Shown here: positions 40,771 to 44,748 of the stretch, piece after piece
Layout: the number at the start of each line of letters is the position of its first letter
Numbering within the stretch: position 1 is the first letter of the stretch
Origin: Betaproteobacteria bacterium
Lineage (GTDB): Bacteria > Pseudomonadota > Gammaproteobacteria > Burkholderiales > Thiobacillaceae
Length of the DNA stretch: 64,000 nt
Reading direction: 5' to 3'
Assembly: GCA_016219425.1 (NCBI GenBank)
Contig: JACRNB010000010.1
Coordinates: 124,001-188,000 of the forward strand
The notes under the pieces: model-generated
Database searches by the model: none
Told to the model about the DNA's origin: nothing
Seen by the model: only the letters and a program-made list of their open reading frames with translations
Made by a program: the position numbers and the translations under genes

Positions 40771-40800
40771 GGAAGTAAACCAACCCTGTGGGGCGTTCCC

Positions 40801-40986
40801 CTACAGGGCGATCACCAGTCGCTCCAGGGCGTAGACCAGCATCAGCAGGGCGATCAATCCCAGCGCGCCCTTCAAACTGAGCCCGGCAAAGCGTAGCCAG
40901 CGCGGGTCGCGGTTGAGGGAATAGCCCAGCAGGGAAACCACCAGCAGGACGCCCGCTAAAACGATCAACAGCCGAAAGGCCAGCAT
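40801..40986 (-). CDS. Small membrane protein of unknown function
   Basis: This 61-residue protein has two predicted membrane helices (about 4-24 and 36-57) joined by a short basic loop (NRDPRWLRF). It starts 3 bp after the lpxC stop codon on the same strand, so it is probably the last gene of the dcw transcript. I do not recognise a family. It is judged real because of its spacing, membrane pattern and ATG start. Confidence 0.65.
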   Translation of the reverse strand: MLAFRLLIVLAGVLLVVSLLGYSLNRDPRWLRFAGLSLKGALGLIALLMLVYALERLVIAL

Positions 40987-40989
40987 GGT

Positions 40990-41904
40990 TCAGGCCGGCA
41001 TCGGAAACAGATCGAGCAAGCCGCGCGGCGTGGCCGCGTCATCCTCGAACGTCGCCCACTCCCAGCTCGCAACGTCGGTCACCAGGGCGCGCAGCAACTG
41101 ATTGTTGAGGCCGTGGCCTGACTTGTGCGCGGCAAAGGCGCCCAGGATCGGATGGCCGGTGAGATAGAGATCGCCCACCGCGTCCAGCGCCTTGTGTTTC
41201 ACGAACTCGTCGGCGTAGCGCAGCCCGTCGCTGTTGAGTACGCGGAACTCATCCAGCACCACGGCGTTGTCCAGCGTACCCCCCAGCGCCAGACCGCGGC
41301 TGCGAAGGGTTTCCACATCCTGCATGAAGCCGAAGGTGCGGGCCCGGCTGACCTCGCGCACATAGGACTGGCGGGCGAAATCCAGCGTCACGGACTTGGC
41401 GGAATTGCGGAATACGGGGTGATTGAAGTCGATGCTGAAGGCCATTTTGAAGCCCTCGTGGGGCGTGAAGGACGCCCACTTGTCGCCATCCTCCACCCGC
41501 ACCTCGCGCCGGACGCGGATGAAGCGCTTGGCGCAGGGAAGGGGTTCAATGCCGGCGGACTGGATGAGGAAGACGAAAGGGGCGGCAGAGCCGTCCAGGA
41601 TGGGCACTTCGGGGCCGTCCAGATCAATGTGGACGTTGTCGATGCCTAGTCCGGCCAGGGCGGACATCAGATGTTCCACGGTGGAGACCCGTGCGCCGTT
41701 GGCTTCCAGTGCGGAGCACAGGCGGGTGTCGTGCACCTGTTCGGGCGCGACGCGAAAACTTGGGGCCTGAGGCAGATCGGTGCGGGTAAAGAGTATCCCG
41801 GTATTGGCCTGGGCCGGGCGCAGGGTCAGGTTGACGCGAACCCCCGAATGCAGTCCCACGCCGATGGTGTGGACCAGGGATTTCAGGGTGCGTTGCCGAA
41901 TCAT
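40990..41904 (-). CDS. lpxC: UDP-3-O-acyl-N-acetylglucosamine deacetylase LpxC
   Basis: This 304-residue enzyme carries out the committed step of lipid A synthesis. Its zinc ligands are in VEHLMSAL and in HKALDAVGD, with [18 protein letters not shown] following. The start at ATG 41904 gives the family N-terminus [21 protein letters not shown]. The sequence directly upstream is not native: it is the end of a 234-bp repeat element whose terminal repeat (CTGAGGTTTCTAGG) supplies the only Shine-Dalgarno-like sequence. Confidence 0.95.
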
Positions 41905-42143
41905 CCTAGAAACCTCAGTTGACCGCTCCTTGGCCCTCGTGAGGGCGCATGGGCGCTGGCGTTTGCGCCTCCGGGGACGCTCACCCATTGGGTGGCGCCG
42001 CTACGCGCCCGATTGCACGGTTTTCGGGTCGTCTGGCGGCGTTGCTCCTCCTTGCGGGGCCGGCCCCGCTGCGTCGTCGCGCCTTGCCAGACGCCCCGAA
42101 AACCGCACACTCGGACGCGTCCAACTGAGGTTTCTAGGATCAT
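41900..42143. mobile_element. 234-bp MITE-like element with 5-bp target duplication at the lpxC start codon
   Basis: The element (41905-42138) begins CCTAGAAACCTCAGTTG and ends with its exact inverse. ATCAT flanks it on both sides (41900-41904 and 42139-42143), the mark of transposition. Inside are a 20-bp inverted repeat with one mismatch (42018-42037 with 42086-42105) and the perfect palindrome GCGGGGCCGGCCCCGC (42054-42069). No transposase is encoded, so it would need one in trans. The lpxC start codon lies in the left ATCAT copy; the right copy keeps the original ATGAT. Confidence 0.88.
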
Positions 42144-42182
42144 GCTGATTGATAACTCATTGAGTAAACGAGGGAATTCTAT

Positions 42183-42212
42183 CCCGGACGGGGAGGAGGG
42201 GCCCCGTCCGGG
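42183..42212. other. Stable stem-loop after ftsZ
   Basis: A perfect 11-bp stem (CCCGGACGGGG at 42183-42193 with CCCCGTCCGGG at 42202-42212) has an 8-nt loop, 55 bp after the ftsZ stop codon. No T-run follows on either strand, so it is more likely an mRNA-stabilising or partly terminating hairpin between ftsZ and lpxC than a full terminator. Confidence 0.6.
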
Positions 42213-42266
42213 AAGAACCCGGACACACATGCCGTGCGTCGCGTGGCGCGGCAGCGCCGGAAGTTC

Positions 42267-43457
42267 TCAGTCCGCCTGTTTGCGCAGGAAGGCCGGAATG
42301 TCCAGGGTGTCGATGCCTGAAGAAGAGGCCGACACCTCCGTGACCAGACCGCCGCCGCGTTGGCTGCGGCGGAATGTGGTGGGCTGGTCGTAGTCGATTT
42401 CCGTGGAGGCGGAGGACATGGGGACGGCGTCGTAGGTGCCGGTCGCCTTCATCGGTTCGACGATGCGCATCTCCGGCGGCTTGCGCTGTTCCCGCACCGG
42501 ATTGCCCAGGCCGGTCGCCACCATGGTCACGCGCAGGTGCTCGCCCATGCTCTCGTCCACGGAGGTGCCCACGATCACGGTCGCTTCTTCGGCGGCGAAG
42601 CCCTGGATGGCGTTCATCACCTCGTAGTACTCCTCCATCGAGAAGCTTTCGCTGGCGGTGATGTTCACCAACACCCCGCGCGCGCCCTTCAGGTCCACGT
42701 TTTCCAGCAGCGGGCTGGCGACGGCGGCCTCGGCGGCCTCGCGGGCGCGGGATTCGCCGCTGGCCTGGGCGGAACCCATCATGGCCATGCCGACTTCGCT
42801 CATCACCGTCTTCACGTCGGCGAAGTCCACGTTGATCAGGCCCGGGTTGCTGATGATCTCGGAGATGCCCGAGACCGCGCTGTGCAGCACGTCGTTGGCG
42901 GCGGCGAAGGCGTCGGTGAACTTGGCCTTGCCCCCCAGCACCTGGATCAGTTTCTCGTTGGGGATGACGATCAGGCTGTCGACATGCTCCGACAGCGCCT
43001 TCAGGCCCTGTTCGGCGGAACGCATGCGCTTGGTCTGCTCGAACACGAAGGGCTTGGTCACCACTGCCACGGCGAGGATGCCCAGATCCTTGGCCACCTG
43101 CGCCACGATGGGCGCCGCCCCGGTGCCGGTGCCGCCGCCCATGCCTGCGGCGATGAACAGCATGTCGGCCCCGTCGATCAGTTCCGCGATGCGCTCGCGG
43201 TCCTCCAGCGCCGCCTCGCGGCCCACCTCCGGCTTGCCGCCGGCGCCCAGGCCCTTGGTGGCCGAGTTGCCGATCTGCAACTGCACCGGGGCGCGGTTGC
43301 GTTTCAGCGCCTGGGCGTCGGTATTGATGGCGACGAACTCCACGCCGCTCATGCCCTTGCCGATCATGTGATCCACGGCGTTGCCGCCGCATCCGCCCAC
43401 GCCGATGACCTTGATCACGGCATCCTGGGTTTGCAGGTCTTCCAGTTCAAATAACAT
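42267..43457 (-). CDS. ftsZ: Cell division protein FtsZ
   Basis: This 396-residue tubulin-like GTPase forms the division ring. It has the tubulin signature GGGTGTGAAP, GVGGCGGNAVDHM at the N-terminus and the C-terminal peptide DIPAFLRKQAD that binds FtsA. The start is taken as ATG 43457: AGGAGG at 43465-43470 is 7 bp from it, but only 1 bp from the in-frame ATG at 43463, which would add two residues. Confidence 0.97.
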   Translation of the reverse strand: MLFELEDLQTQDAVIKVIGVGGCGGNAVDHMIGKGMSGVEFVAINTDAQALKRNRAPVQLQIGNSATKGLGAGGKPEVGREAALEDRERIAELIDGADMLFIAAGMGGGTGTGAAPIVAQVAKDLGILAVAVVTKPFVFEQTKRMRSAEQGLKALSEHVDSLIVIPNEKLIQVLGGKAKFTDAFAAANDVLHSAVSGISEIISNPGLINVDFADVKTVMSEVGMAMMGSAQASGESRAREAAEAAVASPLLENVDLKGARGVLVNITASESFSMEEYYEVMNAIQGFAAEEATVIVGTSVDESMGEHLRVTMVATGLGNPVREQRKPPEMRIVEPMKATGTYDAVPMSSASTEIDYDQPTTFRRSQRGGGLVTEVSASSSGIDTLDIPAFLRKQAD

Positions 43458-43509
43458 CTTCATCCCTCCTAAGGGTTACAGGCACAAACAGCCGGACTGG
43501 GCCGGCATT

Positions 43510-44748
43510 TCAAAAATTCTGTTGGAACCACGACTTCATCCTGCCCATCACCTCGCCGAAGCTGGCGTTCTGGATACGGGCGGCTTGATCCTGTTCATGT
43601 TTTTCCAGGCCCGTCAGCAGCAGGCCCACGCCGGTGGCGAAGCGGGGGCTGCGCACGCGGTCGGTGAGGCCGGAGATGTCCTGCGGCACGCCGATGCGCA
43701 CCTGGGTGTGGAACACCTCCTCGCCCAGTTCCACCATGCCCTTCATCTGGCTGGTGCCGCCGGTGAGGACGATGCCGGACGAGATCAATTCCTCGAACCC
43801 GCTGCGGCGCAGTTCCGCCTGCACCAGGCTGAACAACTCCTCCACGCGCGGCTCGATCACCTCCGACAGCAGTTGTTTGGAGAGCATGCGCGGACCCCGG
43901 TCGCCGATGCCCGGCACCTCGATCATGTCGTCGCGGGCGGCAAGCTGGCGCAGGGCGATGCCATGCTCGATCTTCAGATCCTCCGCGTCGCGCGTCGGCG
44001 TACGCAGGGTCATGGCGATGTCGTTGGTGATCTGGTCCCCCGCCACCGGAATCACCGCCACATGCTGGATCGCGCCCCGGGTGAACACGGCGATGTCGGT
44101 GGTGCCGCCGCCGATATCCACCAGACACACGCCCAGATCCTTCTCATCCTCGTTCAGCACCGCATGGCTGGAGGCGAGCGGTTGCAGCACCAGATCCTTC
44201 ACCTCCAGGCCGCAGCGGCGCACGCACTTGACGATGTTCTGCACCGCCGACACCGCCCCGGTCACCACATGCGCCTTCACCTCCAGGCGCACGCCGGACA
44301 TGCCCAGCGGATCGCGCACGCCGTCCTGGTCGTCGATGATGAATTCCTGCGGCAGCACATGCAGGATCTGCTGGTCTGCCGGGATCGGCAGGGCGCGCGC
44401 GATCTCGATCACCCGGTCCATGTCGTTCTGGCTCACCTCGCGGTCGCGGATGGGCAGCATGCCGCTGGAGTTCTGGGCGCGGATGTGGCTGCCGGCGATG
44501 CCGGTGTAGACCTGGGTGATCTTGCAGTTGGCCATCAGCTCGGCCTCCTCCAGCGCGCGCTGGATCGCCGCCACGGTGGCCTCGATGTTCACCACCACGC
44601 CCTTCTTCAGCCCGCGCGACGGCGCCTGGCCCAGGCCCACGATGTTGAGTCCCCCCTCCGGCGTCGGCTCCGCCACCAGGGCGGCGATCTTCGAGGTGCC
44701 GATATCCAGGCCGACGATCAGATCCTTGTTTTCCCGGAGTTTGTTCAT
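43510..44748 (-). CDS. ftsA: Cell division protein FtsA
   Basis: This 412-residue actin-like protein tethers FtsZ to the membrane. It has VGLDIGTSKIAALVAE (phosphate 1), VDIGGGTTDIAVF (phosphate 2), GIVLTGGTSQMKG, and the C-terminal amphipathic helix GRMKSWFQQNF. Its start overlaps the ftsQ stop by 4 bp. Confidence 0.97.
   Translation of the reverse strand: MNKLRENKDLIVGLDIGTSKIAALVAEPTPEGGLNIVGLGQAPSRGLKKGVVVNIEATVAAIQRALEEAELMANCKITQVYTGIAGSHIRAQNSSGMLPIRDREVSQNDMDRVIEIARALPIPADQQILHVLPQEFIIDDQDGVRDPLGMSGVRLEVKAHVVTGAVSAVQNIVKCVRRCGLEVKDLVLQPLASSHAVLNEDEKDLGVCLVDIGGGTTDIAVFTRGAIQHVAVIPVAGDQITNDIAMTLRTPTRDAEDLKIEHGIALRQLAARDDMIEVPGIGDRGPRMLSKQLLSEVIEPRVEELFSLVQAELRRSGFEELISSGIVLTGGTSQMKGMVELGEEVFHTQVRIGVPQDISGLTDRVRSPRFATGVGLLLTGLEKHEQDQAARIQNASFGEVMGRMKSWFQQNF

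Follow-up and report, generated by a model that had tools for sequence, protein, structure and literature searches.

A MITE-type element at the duplicated start codon of lpxC belongs to a family found repeatedly at start and stop codons

The lpxC locus

The stretch of DNA analysed here (the window, 64,000 nucleotides) carries lpxC on the minus strand at 40990..41904 (304 aa; Pfam LpxC PF03331, E=2.2e-108), with ftsZ as its upstream neighbour on the same strand at 42267..43463 (Pfam Tubulin and FtsZ_C). Directly upstream of lpxC, and read on the minus strand like all the features that follow, is a 234-bp segment (41905..42138) that is a MITE-type, non-autonomous element, identified by its exact 17-bp terminal repeats, its copies elsewhere and the empty sites in relatives. 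The gene-proximal terminal inverted repeat (41905..41921) is CCTAGAAACCTCAGTTG, which on the lpxC strand reads CAACTGAGGTTTCTAGG, and the distal one (42122..42138) is CAACTGAGGTTTCTAGG, the exact inverse of CCTAGAAACCTCAGTTG. The element contains a long internal hairpin at 42003..42120 with 35-nt arms (42003-42037 and 42086-42120), and a repeat search of the window returned the element arms, flanks included, as 27 nt with 89% complementarity.

On the forward strand the element is flanked by ATCAT at 41900-41904 and at 42139-42143, which is ATGAT on the lpxC strand. The upstream copy of this target duplication (42139..42143) holds the original lpxC start codon (42143-42141), which now opens a leader frame of 80 codons running through the element (41901..42143), and the downstream copy (41900..41904) holds the present start codon. 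The TGA of the leader (41903-41901) overlaps the functional ATG (41904-41902), forming ATGA. Read outward, the repeat end is CAACTGAGGTTTCTAGG followed by the ATG, and it places a Shine-Dalgarno-like GAGG core (41913..41916) 8 nt 5' of the start. An earlier note on this DNA had described a transposon-like insertion exactly at the lpxC start codon, with the codon duplicated, exact inverse repeats bounding 234 bp, ATCAT on either side and an old ATG opening a frame whose TGA overlaps the lpxC ATG. Direct reading of the sequence confirmed the coordinates and the frame, and the copies, 5-bp duplications and empty sites presented below agree with the insertion.

A 109-aa frame through the element had no Pfam match, and an Rfam scan of 40800-43600 returned no family up to E=1. 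Together with the empty alleles in relatives, this Rfam result rules out a conserved leader RNA. Between ftsZ and lpxC we also noted a GC-rich hairpin with 12-bp perfect arms (42182-42213), followed by TAGAAT on the lpxC strand. By eye, same-genus relatives have a comparable hairpin with a TAGAAT- or TAACAT-like motif, and this region is perhaps the lpxC promoter region.

Copies and spread of the element family

The genome that contains the window (G000, 3.1 Mb in 16 contigs) was searched for further copies, and 11 full copies with 86-100% identity are present, so the lpxC copy does not stand alone. The terminal repeat has 46 matches at up to 3 mismatches, compared to 4 for the reversed pattern. 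Given the 11 full copies and a terminal repeat far above the controls, the element is not a chance pattern. Measured against their consensus, the copies in this genome have 5 to 29 deviating alignment positions (11 in the lpxC copy), and they are therefore not very recent.

DNA matches were found in 56 of 121 genomes, own genome included, and 21 of the 22 other members of the genus are among these. At most 6 candidates were scored per genome in this search, so the copies obtained from it (set 1) are a sample. The repeat end followed by NTNA has matches in 20 of the 23 genomes of the genus, with none for the control. At least 114 stretches taken from named genome contigs contain the exact repeat end, and the matches listed include Gallionella, Sulfuricella, Thiobacillus, Azoarcus and the gammaproteobacterium Thalassocella blandensis; a Polaromonas plasmid has one copy that is 70% identical. 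The Thalassocella blandensis MAG (L171 and others) has many copies, mostly of 163 bp, with an identical terminal repeat and with TTAAA as the commonest target.

We also observed a second element family in G000 (L310-L327, L369-L372 and L377). Its members are 141 bp long, with the end CCTGGAAAACGCAGTTG and an internal palindrome resembling GTGCGAATGAATTCGCAC.

Target sequence and target duplication

We located 80 copies in set 1, dropped 7, and counted the flanks and duplications of the remaining 73. The pentamer WTNAW fits both flanking 5-mers in 60 of the 73; the left flanking copy is ATGAT or ATCAT in 25 and TTCAA or TTGAA in 14. The two flanking 5-mers are identical in 40 copies and imperfectly matched in 33. 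In these 33, the differences fall at positions 1, 3 and 5 (14, 13 and 12 cases), with only 2 and 1 at positions 2 and 4, and the bases that touch the element are complementary in 32 of them. Examples are ATGAT / element / ATGAA and ATGAA / element / TTGAA. In the second type the gene now begins with TTG (fliQ in L031; also L009 and L044). Either the touching base is part of the element repeat, or a palindrome was made symmetric after insertion. Six set-1 copies have flanking 5-mers that are identical and not palindromic, which shows that insertion can also produce a true 5-bp duplication. No clear association was found between element ancestry and the kind of base that abuts the element (37 vs 31.7, p=0.17). 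In the 141-bp sister family, 20 of 28 copies have identical flanking 5-mers.

Insertion at start and stop codons

Genes around the copies were predicted with a home-made gene finder trained on the window and the loci; its start calls are approximate and were applied alike to observed and background sites, the background being sites with the same pentamer limited to non-genic positions. The empty site was joined in two ways, and one join yielding a start sufficed to class a copy as START, a rule that favours START and that decided the class of L044 and also made a difference for L061.

Counted in this way, 22 of the 73 set-1 copies are on a predicted start codon (START), 15 on a stop codon (STOP), 23 elsewhere between genes and 13 within genes. 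Among the 60 non-genic copies, START exceeds its expectation (22 vs 13.2, p=0.0009) and so does STOP (15 vs 5.1, p=0.0001). Set 2 consists of copies found only via the exact repeat end, and 6 of its 76 were dropped (3 duplicates of set 1 and 3 with short flanks). In its high-GC group (31 non-genic copies of 34) we counted 12 START vs 4.3 expected and 9 STOP vs 2.8 expected. The AT-richer Thalassocella copies of set 2 gave START in 0 of 31 and STOP in 3 of 31 (1.3 expected, p=0.13), and the low-GC group gave START in 0 of 5 and STOP in 1 of 5.

Across the genus, the repeat end followed by ATGA occurs at 106 ends in 18 of 23 genomes, with none for the reversed-pattern control. From these we assembled a genus-wide set, with 30 ends fetched by pattern, 45 by place and set-1 loci for the others. 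Contig-edge ends and copies with unlike or repeated flanks were left out, 60 copies were placed and 32 occurrences were not placeable. The set overlaps set 1: it shares 18 of its 60 rows with set 1, and among the other 42 rows, treated as new, at least 5 are places already in set 1 that received different locus ids, each counted once. Of its 49 non-genic copies, 36 are START, where 20.9 were expected (p=1e-5).

The preference for WTNAW targets therefore explains much of the boundary effect in GC-rich genomes, and an excess of 1.7- to 2.8-fold persists beyond it. The start-codon position is a habit of the element family, one that is common also to stop codons, and the earlier note did not anticipate this. 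Insertions at stop codons keep the upstream gene intact. In the 141-bp sister family, START was found in 1 of 28 copies (L314), which has a GAGG end and an open 49-codon leader, and the genus-wide set contains another 141-bp START copy (L406).

The genes hit include lptG, fliQ, trpF, acpS, rodA, tolC, folE and leuD, as well as genes for a VOC protein, a GH3 glycosidase and a ThiS/MoaD-type protein. Family models of LptG, AcpS, LeuD, FliQ, TrpF and the ThiS-type protein align from residue 1-6, which supports the start sites of those genes; the model of FolE begins only at residue 25-31. Four of the scanned proteins had no family match at first, and two of them later matched Pfam. For acpS, start-codon copies are found in two genera (L060 in G028 and L113 in G016), making it the second case, after lpxC, of insertion at the same codon across lineages.

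The lpxC locus in relatives

We compared the lpxC loci of 29 relatives (L072-L100). In 28 of them there is no repeat end at the ATG, and a mismatch scan agrees; the sole further match, in L093, has 4 mismatches and sits downstream of the lpxC start. With empty alleles in 28 of the 29 lpxC loci, the segment is not a conserved leader.

In G021 (L090), a different element of 288 bp occupies the same lpxC codon. It is flanked by exact ATGAT copies, and its leader is open over 98 codons and has the same ATGA overlap. Over its 3' 178 bp, this element shares 83-91% identity with copies in G004, G002, G021 and others. In the LpxC tree, G021 groups with G002, G013, G007 and G012, and G000 groups with G001, and none of these five neighbours has an element at the lpxC ATG. 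Based on the tree placement and on the 3' similarity of the G021 element to other copies, the two lpxC insertions are most simply read as independent events. In a third species, G013 (L086), we observed a further end of the family 175 bp upstream of lpxC.

The leader frame

Among the 22 START copies of set 1, 17 have a leader that stays open up to the gene start; the corresponding figure for the 51 non-START copies is 37 of 102 strand reads (p=0.0005). Openness at START copies is confounded by the relatedness of the copies: among those at least 80% identical to the window copy, the leader is open in 15 of 16 START copies vs 19 of 32 others (p=0.0125), and at 85% or more in 11 of 12 vs 13 of 18 (p=0.20). 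In the genus-wide set the counts are 26 of 36 START copies and 11 of 24 others (p=0.037), 16 of 25 and 6 of 17 for new loci only (p=0.065), and 26 of 36 and 9 of 19 if an upstream ATG, GTG or TTG is required (p=0.064). In set 2, read by gene strand, the leader is open in only 4 of 12 START copies.

Counting each distinct length once, 17 of the 29 element lengths in the genus-wide set are divisible by 3 (p=0.0045), although lengths linked by descent are not independent. Such lengths are found in 28 of 36 START copies and 17 of 24 others, so length alone does not single out START. GAGG was not enriched at START copies (p=0.07 overall, 0.83 once the target was matched).

Pairs of START leaders differ at 261, 385 and 308 sites for codon positions 1, 2 and 3. 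There is no third-position excess, which rules out a functional leader peptide.

The frame of lpxC itself is open up to 41988, where an ATG inside the element could begin a 332-aa frame and give LpxC an N-terminal extension. We consider this very improbable, as that ATG has no scored ribosome binding site, conservation of the start region in relatives sets in at the duplicated codon, and only 1 of 22 START copies has a gene frame that stays open across the entire element. The last count also rules out N-terminal fusion as a general mode for the family.

A candidate mobiliser

A search of the own genome for an IS1380-type transposase (PF13701) found none, and G000 is not among the 10 of 199 genomes that have relatives of the transposase described next. 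As far as searched, then, an active helper in the own genome is ruled out. In G102, a diverged IS1380-like transposase (L157) lies directly inside a CCTAGAAGCCTCATTTG end. It scores 95.2 bits on NF033539, below the cut-off of 180, and the protein is incomplete, being cut by a contig end.

Among 11 IS loci tried, 7 contain an IS of 1639 bp whose ends are CCTAAATCCGGCAGTT and whose 5-bp duplications are exact; all 7 are from G184. In G107, a broken IS copy has CCTAAAAACCGCAGTTG as its end, and MITE copies, L068 and L140 among them, carry the identical end. In the IS1380 family the target duplication is 4-5 bp, and the end of ISEcp1, which we take to be CCTAGATTC, resembles the ends of the elements here. 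The similarity between IS and MITE is confined to about 22-25 nt at the end, so the link to a mobiliser is one that we infer. When the PF13701 loci were first searched for ends, clear matches came only from L157 and L161, and L155 yielded an unrelated MITE pair. We also considered pairs of terminal repeats in the loci analysed that were separated by 450-4500 bp and had similar flanks; every one of them enclosed additional repeats and was thus not a simple IS.

The mobiliser is thus probably an IS1380-like IS, seen only in relatives. The earlier note had proposed looking for an IS with the same terminal repeat; IS1380-like ISs in relatives have similar or identical ends, and none was found in the own genome.

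RNA structure and translation of lpxC

The element transcript folds with a predicted -163 kcal/mol (z=-9.3). In the predicted fold of the full transcript, all 17 bases of CAACUGAGGUUUCUAGG, GAGG included, have an unpaired probability of 0.00. With 60 nt of 5' sequence kept, the predicted unpaired probability of GAGG rises to 0.20-0.66, and with 40 nt kept it is 0.01-0.76; with 25 nt kept GAGG is paired again (0.05-0.13).

Taking the observed element, duplication, copies, empty sites, enrichment and open leader together with the predicted RNA structure, we infer as the best explanation, with a probability of roughly 0.6, that a MITE mobilised by an IS1380-like IS inserted at the start codon and that lpxC is coupled to the leader by termination and reinitiation. 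The element inserts mostly at AT-rich WTNAW pentamers and duplicates 5 bp. In GC-rich, gene-dense genomes, many of the non-genic WTNAW pentamers are start codons (ATGAW) or stop codons, and a duplication at either leaves the coding sequence of the genes whole. At a start codon, the native ribosome binding site and ATG now begin a leader frame that runs into the element. In an untranslated transcript, the element-borne GAGG would be locked in the element stem; translation of the leader would open the stem, and the terminating ribosome would reinitiate at lpxC. Overlaps of the ATGA type or similar ones showed strict coupling in 13 of 14 gene pairs tested in a published study (PMC6728339).

Alternatively, the start-codon position may be merely tolerated, with lpxC translated independently from the GAGG of the terminal repeat and the leader having no role. 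The spacing of GAGG to the lpxC ATG fits this, as do the mostly closed leaders of set-2 START copies (4 of 12 open), the lack of a coding signature in the leader and the leader test that is not significant among close copies. Nevertheless, GAGG is predicted to be fully paired in the full transcript, and in two overlapping sets open leaders are more frequent among START copies than among others, so we regard independent initiation as doubtful.

A promoter inside the element, or cleavage of its stem by RNase III, could also yield a short lpxC mRNA that lacks the 5' arm and leaves GAGG free. Such effects are reported for Correia elements (PMC10969869), the stem is highly stable (z=-9.3), and GAGG is predicted to be partly freed once most of the 5' part is absent. 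This explanation seems unlikely to us, since no sigma70-like promoter was found in 41700-42320 and GAGG is predicted to pair again with 25 nt kept.

Dependence of lpxC translation on coupling via the leader frame, a route that the earlier note had raised, is therefore plausible. We favour coupling at lpxC with moderate confidence, and do not claim it for all copies. A reading as special control of lpxC is disfavoured, as the leader has no codon-position signature and not every START copy has an open leader (4 of 12 do in set 2). More tentatively, it is possible that the ATGAW target, the duplication, the stop-free frame, the Shine-Dalgarno-like core and the ATGA exit jointly allow the family to insert at the start codons of essential genes and make each of these genes leader-coupled. 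If so, the native start signal would keep control, and a built-in, translation-sensing switch would have been added.

An element that inserts at the start codon of an essential gene should usually kill its host, yet members of this family are found at such codons again and again (lpxC in two species and acpS in two genera). This illustrates how a mobile element can exploit the punctuation of the genetic code as a harmless landing site, and how new leader frames with translational coupling could emerge in a single step. Where such copies sit, annotation pipelines may assign the wrong start codon.

Comparison with known systems

The leader and lpxC resemble coupled, overlapping gene pairs in their ATGA stop-start overlap (PMC6728339). 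Unlike in those pairs, the upstream cistron here arose through a transposon insertion that duplicated a start codon, and it lacks a signature of peptide conservation.

The candidate mobiliser ISs in G184 and G107, with their similar or identical ends, are like the IS1380 family (e.g. ISEcp1), and the G184 IS shares with it the 5-bp duplications. In contrast to that family, the L157 transposase, an incomplete protein, is under the NF033539 cut-off, and the G184 duplications include non-palindromic ones.

The element itself is like the bacterial MITEs Correia/NEMIS, ERIC, RUP and MITEAba12, which are short, multicopy and transposase-less, with terminal inverted repeats and target duplication; their transcripts form long stems, and some of them contain open frames (PMC10969869, PMC2229807, PMC6382973). 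Among the titles and abstracts on MITEs that our literature search covered, there was no family that lands on start codons; an earlier description is possible for the Polaromonas JS666 MITE. In a review of prokaryotic MITEs (PMC10969869), the terms "start codon" and "ribosome" occur 0 times, and start-codon duplication is absent from its section on gene expression. The MITE effects known from that review involve promoters, IHF sites, RNase III, RNase E, inactivation, sRNA, terminators or riboswitches, and frame fusions. Unlike the effects described there, the lpxC element combines a duplicated start codon, a Shine-Dalgarno-like end and an overlapping leader stop.
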